Of a stretch of DNA of 64,000 nucleotides, positions 38,754 to 58,168 are shown piece after piece. This DNA comes from Lysobacter sp. MMG2 (GTDB lineage Bacteria; Pseudomonadota; Gammaproteobacteria; Xanthomonadales; Xanthomonadaceae). Under the pieces are notes generated by a model, which was given only the letters and a program-made list of their open reading frames with translations, ran no database searches and was not told where the DNA came from. A program made the position numbers and the translations under genes. Location: contig NZ_JAERQY020000001.1 in the NCBI RefSeq assembly GCF_016735495.2, forward strand, positions 1,178,001-1,242,000, in the 5' to 3' direction. Within the stretch, counting starts at the first letter, position 1; every line of letters begins with the position of its first letter.

Positions 38754-38948
38754 ATCCCGGCGAGGCCGGGAGCCAGGCCCGCATGCTGTCCGACGCAAGT
38801 GAGTTCGTTACAGATCTGGAGCTGTCATCCCCGCGAAGGCGGGGATCCATACCTCCGCCGTATCACGCCTGACGAAGGGTGACGCGTTTGCGAGTTGGAT
38901 GGTGCCGCCATTCGGCGGCCCAGAAGACCCCGCCTTCGCGGGAATGAC
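38751..38948. repeat. cluster of REP-like palindromes between ettA and pyrF
   Basis: Three members of the GTCATYCCCGCGAAGGCGGG family: 38751-38774, 38824-38849 and, inverted, 38927-38948. A GCCGCC/GGCGGC hairpin lies between the last two. They fill most of the 273-bp gap; no gene is seen. Confidence 0.8.
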
Positions 38949-38978
38949 AACAAAGAACAAGAAAGACAAGGACCCAGC

Positions 38979-39791
38979 ATGACCTTCATGTCATCCCTGA
39001 AACATCGCTGGAGTGAAGCCGACTCCCTGGTCTGCGTCGGCCTCGATCCCGAACCTTCCAAATTCCCGGCAAAGTTCGCGAACGATCCCGATGCGGTCTT
39101 CGCCTTCTGCCGCGACATCGCCGACGCCACCGCGCAATACGCCTGCGCGTTCAAGCCGCAGATCGCGCACTTCGCCGCCCTGGGCGCGGAAGGCGCGTTG
39201 CAGCGACTCATCGCGCACATCCACGCCACGCATCCCGGCGTGCCGGTGATCCTGGACAGCAAGCGCGGCGACATCGGCAGCACGGCACAGCATTACGCGT
39301 CCGAAGCCTTCGACCGCTACGCCGCCGATGCGGTGACGGTGAACCCGTACCTGGGCCGCGATTCCGTGCAGCCCTTCCTGGATCGCGCCGATCGCGGCGT
39401 GGTGATCCTGTGCCGCACGTCGAATCCGGGCGCGGGTGATCTCCAGGATCTCGTCATCGACGGCCGCCCGCTGTACCAGCACGTCGCCGAGAAGATCGCG
39501 CGCGAATGGAACGGCAACGGCAACTGCTCGCTGGTCGTCGGCGCGACATGGCCGGCGCAGCTGAAGGAAGTGCGTGCGATCGTCGGCGAGGTGCCGTTCC
39601 TGGTGCCTGGCGTCGGCGCGCAGGGTGGCGACGTGGAAGCGGTCGTGACGAACGCGAAGACCGCTGACGGCACCGGCCTGATGGTGAGCAGCTCGCGCGC
39701 GATCCTGTATGCCTCGTCGGGCGCGGATTACGCGCAAGCGGCTGCGAATGCGGCGCGTGAGTTGCGCGATCAGATCAACCGGTATCGCTGA
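38979..39791 (+). CDS. pyrF: orotidine-5'-phosphate decarboxylase, type 2
   Basis: PyrF decarboxylates OMP to UMP, the last step of de novo pyrimidine synthesis. It has 270 residues and the type-2 signature VILDSKRGDIGSTAQHYA, longer than the roughly 230-residue E. coli type. Other blocks: LVCVGLDPEPSKFP near the start, NPYLGRDSVQPF and FLVPGVGAQGGD. The start was placed at ATG 38979; ATG 38988 three codons on is possible. The upstream extension reads through REP DNA. Confidence 0.94.
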   Translation: MTFMSSLKHRWSEADSLVCVGLDPEPSKFPAKFANDPDAVFAFCRDIADATAQYACAFKPQIAHFAALGAEGALQRLIAHIHATHPGVPVILDSKRGDIGSTAQHYASEAFDRYAADAVTVNPYLGRDSVQPFLDRADRGVVILCRTSNPGAGDLQDLVIDGRPLYQHVAEKIAREWNGNGNCSLVVGATWPAQLKEVRAIVGEVPFLVPGVGAQGGDVEAVVTNAKTADGTGLMVSSSRAILYASSGADYAQAAANAARELRDQINRYR

Positions 39792-39838
39792 AATCCACGC
39801 GCCGGTTCGCTGAACCACGCGCGCCGTGGGTGCTTGAG

Positions 39839-39861
39839 CCCCTCTCCCACCGGGAGAGGGG
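39839..39861 (+). terminator. pyrF terminator-like hairpin
   Basis: CCCCTCTCCC (39839-39848) and GGGAGAGGGG (39852-39861), a perfect 10-bp stem with loop ACC, 47 bp past the pyrF stop. It may be a repeat family of its own; no U-run. Confidence 0.45.
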
Positions 39862-40166
39862 TTGGGGTGAGGGTCGGCGGAGTGTCAGCGCCGGAGCTCG
39901 CGGGGCCGCTATCAAGCCGATCGCAAGAAGCAAAATGGATTCCAGCTTTCGCTGGAATGACGGTGAGCAGCGTCGAGGCTGCGGGCCTGGATCCCGGCCT
40001 TCGCCGGGATGACAGCAGGGTTCTGCAGTGCCGCACAGTCACGGATTTCGATAGCGAGATCGCTGCCATCCATGGCGTCACGCAACGGGCTTCGGATCGC
40101 CCTGCCCGTCCATCCATGGCCGGGCGTTCGGCAGGCCACGCGGCAGTGCCGCGTAAGCGGCCTGCC
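39862..40166. repeat. REP-containing gap between pyrF and the DUF1501 gene
   Basis: Two adjacent palindromes of the REP-like family at 39936-39961 and 39987-40013, in direct orientation to each other. The rest has no credible open frame. The two convergent genes end on either side. Confidence 0.7.
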
Positions 40167-54661: not shown

Positions 54662-55879
54662 TCACCCTATCGCATTGGTCAGTCCATACAGCGGCATCAG
54701 CACGGCCATGACGACGATGCCGACGACCGCGGCCAGCACGATCGTCACCACCGGCACCAGCGCCGCCAACATGCGGTCGAGCGCGAGCGAGGTTTCCTGC
54801 TCGAACGTCTCGGCCGTCTTCACCAGCATCGCGTCCAGCGCACCGGACTCCTCGCCCACCTGGATCATCTGCAGTGCCAGGCGAGGGAAGCGCTTGCCGC
54901 GTCCGAGCGCGGTGGACAGCGCGATACCGTTCTTTACTTCCTGCGCCGCCGCTTCCACGTCCGCCGCCAGCACGCGGTTGCCCAGCACGTTGCGGCCGAT
55001 GCCCAGCGCGGTGATCAGCGGCACGCCGTTGCGCACCAAGGTTCCGAGCGTGCGCGCCAGGCGCGCGGTCTCGGCCTTGGCCACCAGGCCGCCGACGAAG
55101 CGTCGCTGCAACAGCCACGCATCGAAGGCTTCGCGGAATACCGGATCGCGGCGCTTGCGGTCAAACCACCACAGCGCCAGCGCGGGCAATGCCAGCAGCA
55201 CGATCCACCAGTCGCGCACGAACAGGCCGATGCCGAGCACGATGCGGGTGAACAGCGGCAGCTCGGCGTCGAGGCTTTCGTACATCGCGCCGAACTGCGG
55301 GACCACGTAACCGAACAGGAACAGCAGGCTGCCGCCAACCATCACCAGCAGGATCGCCGGATAGATCAGCGCGTTGACGACCCTGCCTTGCAGGGCGCGC
55401 GTGCGTTCCAGGTAATCGGCCAGGCGCGCGAGGGTTTCCTGCAGGCTGCCGCCGGCTTCGCCCGCGCGCACCATGTTCACGTACAGGCGCGAGAACGTGC
55501 CGTGCTGGCGTTCCAGCGCCGCAGACAGCGAACTGCCGCCGCGCACGGCATCGCGCACGTCGCCGATGGTGCGGCGTGCGGCCTCGTCTTCGGGCAACTC
55601 GAGCAGGATCGTCAGCGCGCGATCGAGCGGCTGGCCCGCACCGAGCAAGGTCGCCAGCTGCTGGGTGAACTGCACCAGGCGTGCGCCCGCGAACGGCCTG
55701 GGCTTGAACAGCGTGCGCCACGTCGAAGCGCCCGACGCCTCGCTGGCGAGTTTCGCCTCCACCGGCAGATGCCCCTGCTCCTGCAATCGCGCGACGACTT
55801 CGGCGCTCGTGCCGGCTTCCATCTGGCCGTCGAGCAGTTCGCCGCGCGGGTTGAGCGCCTTGTAGTGGTAGAGGGGCAT
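54662..55879 (-). CDS. gspF: type II secretion inner-membrane platform protein GspF (XpsF)
   Basis: GspF is the polytopic platform protein that couples the ATPase to pseudopilus assembly. It has 405 residues and two GspF domains: FTQQLATLLGAGQPLDRAL...YVNMVRAGEAGGSLQETLARLADYLE and ARTLGTLVRNGVPLITALGI...MIQVGEESGALDAMLVKTAETFE, with three membrane segments. No clear ribosome-binding site is seen: the ATG is eight bases from a nine-copy 7-bp tandem repeat that fills its leader. Confidence 0.96.
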   Translation of the reverse strand: MPLYHYKALNPRGELLDGQMEAGTSAEVVARLQEQGHLPVEAKLASEASGASTWRTLFKPRPFAGARLVQFTQQLATLLGAGQPLDRALTILLELPEDEAARRTIGDVRDAVRGGSSLSAALERQHGTFSRLYVNMVRAGEAGGSLQETLARLADYLERTRALQGRVVNALIYPAILLVMVGGSLLFLFGYVVPQFGAMYESLDAELPLFTRIVLGIGLFVRDWWIVLLALPALALWWFDRKRRDPVFREAFDAWLLQRRFVGGLVAKAETARLARTLGTLVRNGVPLITALGIGRNVLGNRVLAADVEAAAQEVKNGIALSTALGRGKRFPRLALQMIQVGEESGALDAMLVKTAETFEQETSLALDRMLAALVPVVTIVLAAVVGIVVMAVLMPLYGLTNAIG

Positions 55880-55887
55880 TGTCGGCC

Positions 55888-55953
55888 GGGATTCGGGATT
55901 CGGGATTCGGGATTCGGGATTCGGGATTCGGGATTCGGGATTCGGGATTCGGG
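55888..55953. repeat. nine tandem copies of a 7-bp unit upstream of gspF
   Basis: GGG followed by nine perfect copies of ATTCGGG (55891-55953). On the gspF strand the unit is CCCGAAT. It lies between the gspF start and the REP at 55975. Perfect short tandem arrays of this kind tend to change length by slippage. Confidence 0.95.
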
Positions 55954-55974
55954 TAGAGCGTATCTGTGTTGCAC

Positions 55975-56408
55975 GTCATTCCCGCGAAAGCGGGAATCCA
56001 GTGACTTCCTTGCGCCTCAGGTCGCTTGATCGCCGCTTTGGCGAGGATGACGAATAGGCGATTGCGCGCCTGTCATCTCCGGCCACAAGTCACGCCAATA
56101 GGGATTGCCCGCCTCGACAAGCCCGATCTTCCATTGCCGCCGCCACTTCTTGATCTGCTTCTCGCGTGTGATTGCCGACTCCATCGTCTCGTGCGCTTCG
56201 TACCAGACCAGACGAGTCACTTCATACCGATCACTGAACCCCTCGACTACATGCTCGCGGTGCTGCCAGATGCGCTTGACTGGATCGCTCGTCACGCCCA
56301 GGTACAAGGTGCCGTTTCGACCACTCGCCAGGAGATAAACGCAAGGCTGCCTTTCCATTCTCGTCCGTGAAAGATAAGTCGCTGGATTCCCGCTTCCGCG
56401 GGAATGAC
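55975..56408. mobile_element. REP-bounded GIY-YIG cassette (candidate)
   Basis: A 434-bp unit made of a GIY-YIG nuclease gene bounded by two 27-bp REP-like palindromes in inverted orientation (55975-56001 and 56382-56408), which differ at a single base. It interrupts the otherwise tightly packed secretion operon between gspE and gspF. Mobility is inferred from structure; no target duplication was recognised. Confidence 0.55.
56017..56358 (-). CDS. GIY-YIG nuclease family protein
   Basis: A 113-residue single-domain GIY-YIG protein, the UvrC/YhbQ/Slx1-like type. The motif is visible as CVYLLASGRNGTLYLGVTSDPVKRIWQHR (Tyr8, Tyr19, Arg29, His33), with the metal Glu expected in the TREKQIKKWRR helix. 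The last dozen residues run towards the REP. Its ORF is wholly inside the REP pair at 55975-56001 and 56382-56408. No secretion role is expected; it may nick DNA. Confidence 0.85.
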   Translation of the reverse strand: MERQPCVYLLASGRNGTLYLGVTSDPVKRIWQHREHVVEGFSDRYEVTRLVWYEAHETMESAITREKQIKKWRRQWKIGLVEAGNPYWRDLWPEMTGAQSPIRHPRQSGDQAT

Positions 56409-56446
56409 GTGAGGGGATGACTACGCTCCCAACGACATCAGTACGC

Positions 56447-58168
56447 TCACGCATCCTCCGTAACGCGCAAAACCTCCTCGATCGTCGTCTCCCCGCGCAG
56501 CGCCTTGGCGATGCCGTCCTCGTACATCGTGCGCATGCCGTGCTGGCGCGCGATCTGCTCGATCTCGCCCATGCCCGCATGACGCATCACCGCGCGGCGC
56601 AGCTCGTCGTTCATCACCAGGAATTCCATGATCGTCGTGCGACCGTGATAGCCGGTCGTCGACAGCGGCGACGGCATCGGGTGGTACAGGAAGATCTCGC
56701 CTTCGGGCTGGTAGCGGCGCAGGTTGAACTTCTCGATCTCTTCCGGCGAGGCCGGATAACGCCGTGCATGCGTCGGCTCCAGGCGGCGCACCAGGCGCTG
56801 GGCGAGGATGCCGTTGACGGTGGAGGTGAGCAGGTAATCCTCCACGCCCATGTCGAGCAGGCGCGTGATACCGCCGGCGGCGTTGTTGGTGTGCAGCGTC
56901 GACAGCACCAGGTGGCCGGTCAGCGCGGACTGGATCGCGATGCGGCACGTCTCCAAGTCGCGCATTTCGCCGATCATGATGATGTCGGGGTCCTGTCGCA
57001 CGATGCTGCGCAGCGCATGGGAGAAATCCAGCCCGATCTGCGGTTTCGCCTGGATCTGGTTGATGCCTTCGATCTGGTATTCCACCGGATCTTCAACGGT
57101 GATGATCTTGACGTCCGGCGTGTTGAGCTTGCTCAGCGCGGTGTACAGCGTGGTCGTCTTGCCCGAGCCGGTCGGGCCGGTGACGAGCAGGATTCCGTGT
57201 GGCTGGTCCAGCACTTTCTGGAACTGCGGCAGGAACGCGTCGGTGAAGCCCAGCCGCTTGAAATCGAAGACGACGGTTTCGCGATCCAGCAATCGCATCA
57301 CCACGCTTTCGCCGTGCGCGGTCGGCACGGTGCTTACGCGCAAGTCCAGTTCCTTGCCCTGCACGCGCAGCATGATGCGGCCGTCCTGCGGCAGGCGGCG
57401 TTCGGCGATGTTGAGCTTGGCCATGATCTTGATGCGGCTGATCACGGCGGCGGTGAGATTGGCCGGCGGGCTTTCGCCTTCGCTGAGCACGCCGTCGATG
57501 CGGTAGCGCACCTTCAGACGATTCTCGAACGGCTCGATGTGGATGTCGGAGGCGCGCAGTTCGACGGCACGCTGGATGATCAGGTTCACCAGTCGGATCA
57601 CCGGCGCTTCGGACGCGAGGTCGCGCAGGTGCTCCACGTCGTCGAGGTCGCCCCCGGCGCCCTCGCCTTCGGCCGTTTCCACGATGGCACCCATCGCGCT
57701 GCGGCCCTGGCCGTACCAGCGTTCGACGAGGTCACCGATTTCCGAACGCAGCGCCACCGCCGGGCGGATGTCGCGGCCGGTGGCCAGGCGCAGGGCATCG
57801 AGCGTGTAGAGGTCCTGCGGATCGGCCATGAGCACGTCGACCGCGCTGTCGCTCTCGCCGACCGGACAGACGGCGAACTGCTTCATGAAGCGCATGGACA
57901 GCGTGACGCCTTCCGGTGGCAGCTCCGGCGCGTCCTTCACGCTGACCAGCGGCAGGCCAAGGACCTCGGCGCAGGTTTCGGCGTGGTCGCGCTCGGACAC
58001 CAGGCCCAGTCGCGCCAGCAATGCGAGCAGGCTGCCGCCCGTCTCGTCCTGCAGGCGGCGCGCGCGGACGAGGTCGGCGTCCTTGAGGCGTCCTCTGGCG
58101 AGCAGCGCATCGACGATGCGTTCCTCGGCGGCGGAGGCCATGGCGATGTCGTGGGCGACTGCGTTCAC
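56447..58168 (-). CDS. gspE: type II secretion ATPase GspE (XpsE)
   Basis: GspE is the cytoplasmic hexameric ATPase powering pseudopilus assembly. It has 573 residues from GTG 58168; ATG 58141 is possible. The N1E/N2E domains lead to VIRLVNLIIQRAVELRASDIHIEP (about 190-212). Walker A GPTGSGKTTT is at 331-340, the Asp box ITVEDPVEYQ and Walker B/His boxes RQDPDIIMIGEMRD and TGHLVLSTLHTN follow. The tetracysteine zinc motif normally near 460-510 is missing: that stretch has no Cys (RRLEPTHARR ... STTGYHGRT). It is the first gene of the operon. Confidence 0.96.
   Translation of the reverse strand: MNAVAHDIAMASAAEERIVDALLARGRLKDADLVRARRLQDETGGSLLALLARLGLVSERDHAETCAEVLGLPLVSVKDAPELPPEGVTLSMRFMKQFAVCPVGESDSAVDVLMADPQDLYTLDALRLATGRDIRPAVALRSEIGDLVERWYGQGRSAMGAIVETAEGEGAGGDLDDVEHLRDLASEAPVIRLVNLIIQRAVELRASDIHIEPFENRLKVRYRIDGVLSEGESPPANLTAAVISRIKIMAKLNIAERRLPQDGRIMLRVQGKELDLRVSTVPTAHGESVVMRLLDRETVVFDFKRLGFTDAFLPQFQKVLDQPHGILLVTGPTGSGKTTTLYTALSKLNTPDVKIITVEDPVEYQIEGINQIQAKPQIGLDFSHALRSIVRQDPDIIMIGEMRDLETCRIAIQSALTGHLVLSTLHTNNAAGGITRLLDMGVEDYLLTSTVNGILAQRLVRRLEPTHARRYPASPEEIEKFNLRRYQPEGEIFLYHPMPSPLSTTGYHGRTTIMEFLVMNDELRRAVMRHAGMGEIEQIARQHGMRTMYEDGIAKALRGETTIEEVLRVTEDA

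Follow-up and report, generated by a model that had tools for sequence, protein, structure and literature searches.

A GIY-YIG nuclease gene family located between or beside CGTC-tagged REP sequences: a candidate minimal mobile cassette

Short palindromic REP sequences carrying a CGTC tag were described by Di Nocera, De Gregorio and Rocco (2013; PMC3733652), who equated the dRS3 repeats of Neisseria with the CGTC-1 type; in the excerpted text of that paper no transposase gene is associated with CGTC repeats, which "apparently lack a dedicated transposase". The locus analysed here resembles the repeats of that description in the tag, the stem starting with AT, the stem of 8 bp, the 4-nt loop, the CCA, the high copy number and the pairing, and differs in having a GIY-YIG gene between or beside the REPs where the excerpted text has no transposase gene (PMC3733652). 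A second close parallel is provided by the REPtrons, or RAYT (TnpA_REP) elements, in which an enzyme gene likewise lies within inverted REPs of its own type and short REP pairs are presumed non-autonomous derivatives; their enzyme is an HUH tyrosine transposase and their tag is GTAG, whereas the cassette described below has a GIY-YIG domain and a CGTC tag. The third comparison is with GIY-YIG homing endonucleases, of which I-TevI is an example. Among the papers listed by our literature search, with bioRxiv and most subscription journals outside its scope, none appears to connect GIY-YIG nucleases with REP, REPIN, RAYT or dRS3; a Moraxella survey (PMC9465073) was listed as containing both terms of one query, once each.

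The window, that is, the whole 64,000-nucleotide stretch of Lysobacter DNA analysed here, belongs to a 4.17-Mb genome that carries a second copy of the nuclease elsewhere. Two inverted 27-nt hairpins flank the gene in the window, a downstream CGTC-1 REP, CGTCATTCCCGCGAAAGCGGGAATCCA, at 55974-56000 (+) and an upstream one, CGTCATTCCCGCGGAAGCGGGAATCCA, at 56383-56409 (-), which differ in a single loop base. Each folds into an unpaired 4-nt CGTC, an 8-bp stem, a 4-nt loop and an unpaired CCA, and at both ends the CGTC tag is outermost and the CCA faces the gene. Between them lies an ORF of 113 aa (56017..56358, - strand; Pfam PF01541, E 5.4e-15), consisting of a core of ~97 aa and a C-terminal tail partly encoded by a decayed REP, tentatively placed at 56026..56052 (-) with 5 mismatches. 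These data confirm the first-pass annotation, which had described two inverted 27-bp palindromes differing by one base around a nuclease gene; its further statement that the gene fills the intervening space is right as to position and wrong as to completeness, 24 bp being spare between REP and ATG and 16 bp between stop codon and REP. With the hairpin surroundings, the inverted repeat extends to 36 nt (94% identity), reached through the heptamer GCGACTT adjoining the upstream REP (56376..56382, -) and its counterpart GTGACTT at the other end of the cassette; a GCGACTT-type motif also adjoins the REPs in three Pseudoxanthomonas copies (L193, L195, L198). A tandem array of the 7-bp unit CGGGATT (55887..55953, +; 9.6 perfect copies) separates the cassette from gspF. 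This array, absent from the first-pass annotation, may lie outside the cassette proper and is perhaps a variable-length spacer before gspF. Similar arrays were seen at the gspE-gspF junction of three other genomes of the genus (G009, G007, G002).

The host genes are gspE upstream (56447..58168, -; T2SSE, E 1e-143) and gspF downstream (54662..55879, -; T2SSF, E 1.6e-60), and the operon neighbours match T2SSE, T2SSF, T2SSG, GspH and T2SSK, in agreement with the earlier placement of the cassette inside a type II secretion operon. That the operon genes mostly overlap holds, by the ORF coordinates, from gspH onwards, and fails for gspF/gspG and gspG/gspH. The gspE-gspF gap measures 567 bp in the window and 3-4 bp in five of the 12 genus genomes (G004, G005, G006, G008, G011), so that the empty site proposed for comparison in relatives does occur. 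The other seven junctions comprise three with the full cassette (G000, G009, G007), two with a gene remnant between REPs (G002 and G010, the upstream REP being truncated in the latter) and two with REPs only (G001, G003). This mixture of full, remnant, REP-only and empty states does not support the suggestion that the cassette arrived recently; the pattern that was to refute the first-pass proposal, all relatives having the gene here without REPs, is absent from the genus comparison. On the unrooted gspF tree, insertion versus empty requires at least three changes and gene or remnant versus neither at least four, counts that do not separate gain from loss.

Relatives of the protein were found in 10 of the 12 genus genomes at E 1e-15 (missing in G005 and G001), and the 16 genus copies occupy three junctions: gspE-gspF (5 copies), the position before a gene we take to encode a YhdH-type oxidoreductase-like protein (7) and that before a presumably KMO-like gene (4). 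At the KMO site the cassette is full in G011, G002 and G006, the gene carries a stop in G007, and a single REP, intact or decayed, stands in G008, G004 and G003; no REP was seen at this site in G000, G009, G005, G010 and G001. Two genus junctions therefore display presence/absence polymorphism, REP-free sites included, of the kind expected of an insertion sequence or MITE. Such elements share with the cassette the terminal inverted repeats, the coexistence of gene-bearing and gene-less forms and the REP-free sites in relatives, and are unlike it in that its ends are self-complementary hairpins, its protein has no known transposase fold and no target duplication was resolved. A REP-like hairpin (up to 5 mismatches) lies within 150 bp of the gene in all 16 genus copies; with the strict REP finder, 12/16 have a REP on any side and 6/16 on both, and 8/16 have a matched inverted repeat. 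The seven copies at the second junction, the second copy of this genome among them, have REPs upstream only, mostly as a short pair. Double-tagged hairpins of the form CGTC-core-GACG were observed in L008 and at the gspE-gspF junction of G003 (L156), and may have been left behind when two REP cores recombined.

The window ORF scores 55.9 bits against the GIY-YIG Pfam model (cut-off 22.6), and an alignment of 50 sequences shows Y8, Y19, R29, H33, E66 and N85 to be invariant; we take these to be the conserved catalytic residues of GIY-YIG nucleases. On this sequence evidence the protein is likely a member of the GIY-YIG nuclease superfamily and a DNA-cutting enzyme. The median dN/dS is 0.10 (38 pairs with dS <1.5, pairs sharing sequences), which indicates that the protein is maintained. 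Among small GIY-YIG proteins, the UPF0213 structures PDB 1zg2 and 1ywl are similar at the profile level and distant (E 4e-5 and 0.0019), and NCBIfam assigned no family to the window protein. The nearest relatives among the best 80 of 588 named-record loci, from which very near records may be absent, belong to a Lysobacteraceae bacterium and Pseudoxanthomonas. The protein resembles GIY-YIG homing endonucleases in its domain and in that selfish spread via host repair is plausible; it is unlike them in being a single domain of ~95 aa, in its hairpin-repeat flanks and in having no match among 50,697 phage records. With no PHROGs match and no PADLOC defence family for the two proteins searched, the reading as a phage or defence gene was rejected. 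A plasmid-borne element was also rejected, matches being present in just 33 of 72,556 plasmid records, several of them chromosome-sized.

To place the locus in its family, we used two sets of relatives. The first comes from a profile search of 397 Pseudomonadota genomes, in which at least 129 gave a relative at E 1e-8, part of the candidates having been scored; the 148 loci of this set are all matches listed outside the genome of the window (150 listed in total; weaker relatives are unrepresented). The second set consists of named records and holds the best 80 of 588 confirmed loci, many of them MAGs. Two loci were excluded before counting, L020, which is the copy of the window again, and L003, a distant GIY-YIG relative in the same genome with 31% identity. 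In this single case the REP scan found none.

In both sets the gene family occurs between or beside CGTC-type REPs far above controls. A matched inverted repeat (score at least 14) spans the gene at 112 of the 148 listed loci, compared with 8/148 when partners were swapped and 2/141 in outer flanks at least 330 bp away. GTCA or TGAC is present on 85 of the 112 matched arms, so that the other 27 cannot be assigned with confidence to the CGTC type. Strict CGTC REPs were located no more than 200 bp away at 62/148 loci and on both sides at 40/148, and the density of strict REPs is 15 times higher near the gene (117 in 59.0 kb) than far from it (22 in 164.4 kb; first 129 loci). For the named records, the matched repeat was found at 59/80 loci and in none of 69 outer flanks, and a strict CGTC REP within 200 bp at 69/80 (both sides 43/80), versus 6/130 shifted positions, a control limited to loci with at least 1300 bp on each side. 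Many named loci share the ATTCCCGCG type, which weakens the partner-swap null (149/400 at score at least 14), and they were therefore judged by the outer-flank control. The controls with other genes were low: ParE toxin genes had neither a matched repeat nor a strict CGTC REP (0/30 each, a few loci being cut by contig ends), and a strict CGTC REP was near 1/30 Y1_Tnp loci, scored over a fixed stretch per locus rather than from gene ends. The check proposed by the first-pass annotation, whether other GIY-YIG genes are bounded by the same REP, is answered in the affirmative for REPs of CGTC type in both sets; copies without palindromes, the observation that was to speak against it, do exist as a minority, since 127/148 loci have a matched repeat or strict REP and 21/148 show neither sign, and the seven genus copies with upstream-only REPs lack one side.

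At two-sided loci, CGTC is outermost on both ends of the inner pair in 18/34 and 24/43 cases in the respective sets. Among records named to other phyla, which as MAG records may be misassigned, a strict REP was present at 6/9 loci and on both sides at 4/9 (L225, Planctomycetes; L256; L260; L261). Neisseria gonorrhoeae DSM 9188 has a GIY-YIG relative with 68% identity amid dRS3-type repeats (L204). Two further N. gonorrhoeae records gave a match without a listed gene beneath it, their gene table being said to be incomplete.

The REPs of the cassette have the full CGTC-1 anatomy, namely an unpaired CGTC tag, a stem starting with AT and 8 bp long, a 4-nt loop and a CCA tail, and they belong to a large population. 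The core occurs in 231 copies in the genome at up to 3 mismatches, far beyond chance expectation, and a relaxed pattern at 404 places at up to 2 mismatches, reversed controls giving 0 in both cases. All 12 genus genomes contain CGTC REPs, their number ranging from 23 to 453, and the reversed pattern again gave none. No relative of the protein was detected in the genome with the fewest (G005, 23) or in G001, which has 129 REPs. In 800 kb of the genome, neighbouring strict REPs no more than 150 nt apart form +- pairs in 20 of 29 cases and -+ pairs in none, and the window adds one -- pair; the +- orientation of the short pairs is that of the cassette. Four +- pairs are 150-1500 nt apart in the 800 kb plus the window, the cassette among them; the longest ORFs of two others are 42 and 77 aa, and the last is a pair of differing REP type, 1086 nt apart around a 298-aa ORF in the window at 38823-39962. 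Two short pairs elsewhere in the genome (C1:771370 and C3:729057) contain the inner stretch of ~25 nt that adjoins the downstream REP of the cassette (56001..56025, +); a pattern of this inner end, composed after these two pairs had been seen, has 3 genomic matches, one of which carries 3 mismatches, whereas its reversed control has none. Among 20 chosen REP pairs, five are nested, the inner one within an outer CCCGGCG-like pair (L309, L311, L312, L316, L318), and L304 has the CCCGGCG type in one outer REP only; the nesting gives the impression that REPs of one class have inserted into those of a different class.

On a FastTree protein tree of 137 loci, the REP loop class, which was taken from the flanks rather than the protein, changes 23 times, compared with a mean of 32.6 and a minimum of 28 in 200 shuffles. 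Shuffling within host families gave 10 observed changes versus a mean of 17.8 (46 loci; 0/500 as low), and family f53 alone gave 5 versus 8.9 (22 loci; 0/500 as low), while genome labels are unclustered on the tree (10 versus 8.8; 14 loci). The tree covers 137 of 225 loci: L012, L016 and L017 were omitted, as was every locus that lacked a matched repeat or fell into the class "other", and the 19 loci that complete the Pseudomonadota set lie outside both the tree and the dN/dS count.

That gene and REPs duplicate as a single unit is partly shown, by few pairs. Alignments of at least 200 nt were obtained for 24 of the 76 pairs within a genome, and most of them cover the gene only. The alignment of the G382 duplicates starts and ends no more than 3 nt from the arms in both copies; those of G258 and G130 start within 1 nt of the arms and end 10-13 nt and ~25 nt beyond them, respectively; that of the G066 pair (L389/L391) fits the arms of one copy; and that of G169 extends well past the arms. 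The sole near-identical pair (99.3%; G072) starts to align 11 bp outside the REP and ceases within the gene. Across genomes, L050 and L059, which occupy different sites, align from -67 to +61, ~5 nt from the arms; other cross-genome pairs come from orthologous sites and resemble each other in their flanks too.

Genomes rich in CGTC REPs also tend to have the gene. With REP-rich defined as at least 60 matches to CGTCATN{14,20}ATCCA, a threshold set after the counts were known, the gene was detected in 35/41 REP-rich and 94/356 other genomes (Fisher p 1.8e-13, uncorrected for relatedness), a result that holds for thresholds from 40 to 100. The REP-rich genomes represent 19 host families, and in 15 of these at least one such genome has the gene (counted by hand); no gene was detected in six REP-rich genomes (G397, G048, G064, G114, G149, G244). 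Y1_Tnp, the RAYT-type domain, shows no such enrichment (15/41 versus 156/356, p 0.41), and among the REP-rich genomes with the gene 23 are without a Y1_Tnp match and 12 have one. In the 12 genus genomes no Y1_Tnp was found above the cut-off, G002 and G003 having weak matches below it. A RAYT was accordingly rejected as the mover, being below cut-off in the genus and unenriched in CGTC-rich genomes, and with its GIY-YIG domain and CGTC tag the REP-bounded unit is, as first proposed, distinct from the REP-associated tyrosine transposases.

We consider that the arrangement CGTC-REP, GIY-YIG gene, inverted CGTC-REP is probably a minimal mobile cassette, of which the short REP pairs would be gene-less kin using the same machinery, and the nuclease is a strong candidate for the partner that spreads CGTC REPs. 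The cassette would be the gene-bearing member of the CGTC REP population of its genome. Its nuclease would recognise the CGTC tag and hairpin of the REP type that accompanies it, either in single-stranded form at a replication fork or as an extruded cruciform, and would cut at or beside that REP. GIY-YIG enzymes hydrolyse DNA and, unlike HUH transposases, form no covalent DNA link. For this reason the nuclease alone should not paste DNA, and host repair or replication would finish the move: a copy of REP-gene-REP, or of a REP pair, would be made in a new place, with the REPs serving as ends or homology arms; extra bases outside the REPs mean that the exact insertion points are not fixed. Against the cassette we count the 21/148 loci with neither sign of REPs, the 27 matched arms of doubtful type, the outward orientation at no more than 18/34 and 24/43 two-sided loci, the one-sided copies, with strict REPs on two sides at only 40/148, 43/80 and 6/16 loci, the 6/41 REP-rich genomes without a detected gene and the 94/356 REP-poor genomes with one, and the small number of duplicates that match from REP to REP.

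Several of the same observations would suit a selfish gene of the homing type, in which the nuclease cuts REPs or REP pairs lacking the gene, repair from a REP-gene-REP copy inserts it, and the REPs are a target made by other means. A single nuclease domain has no joining activity, REPs could supply the homology arms, some duplicates align about from REP to REP, REP-only states occur at both the gspE-gspF and the KMO sites, and the second genus site has REPs on one side only. We nevertheless regard homing as unlikely, because it leaves the source of the REPs unexplained in the 23 of 41 REP-rich genomes in which the gene is present without a Y1_Tnp match, some sites are without any REP (possibly through loss, or never invaded), and the REP class follows the protein.

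It is still less probable that an unrelated enzyme moves the CGTC REPs and the nuclease gene was merely caught between two of them. In favour of such a capture, REP pairs are abundant, and 12 of the 35 gene-bearing REP-rich genomes also contain Y1_Tnp; it is countered by the lack of Y1_Tnp above cut-off in 12/12 genus genomes (two weak matches), by the 1/30 Y1 loci near a strict CGTC REP, by the unlike contents of the other wide +- pairs and by the recurrence of one gene family beside differing REP types. A purely passive relationship, in which REPs persist next to the gene because it is dispensable and the two are functionally unconnected, is very improbable: the gene is decayed in some genomes and REPs are mostly intergenic according to the excerpted text of PMC3733652, but ParE toxin genes, likewise accessory, scored 0/30, and this control disfavours a REP sink, as do a dN/dS of ~0.1 and a protein tree that follows the REP class.

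Returning to the mobile cassette, some genomes contain hundreds of CGTC REPs, and the defining paper of 2013, in its excerpted text, found no enzyme for them (PMC3733652). The presence of a gene family of ~95 aa between or beside these REPs makes their origin directly testable. Tentatively, and with some reserve, we propose that CGTC REPs, including the dRS3 of Neisseria, might be mobile DNA that owes its spread to a hydrolytic GIY-YIG nuclease instead of a transposase. Each lineage of the nuclease would cut the hairpins of the REP type belonging to it, host repair would complete the spread, and the hundreds of REP pairs per genome would be gene-less passengers. The cassette and its REPs would then parallel the REP/RAYT pair as a second system with a different chemistry, and a role would be suggested for small proteins annotated just as "GIY-YIG nuclease family protein". 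If CGTC REPs are indeed driven by this nuclease, they would constitute a new class of bacterial mobile elements, and a large superfamily of repeats would have gained the enzyme that it has so far lacked.
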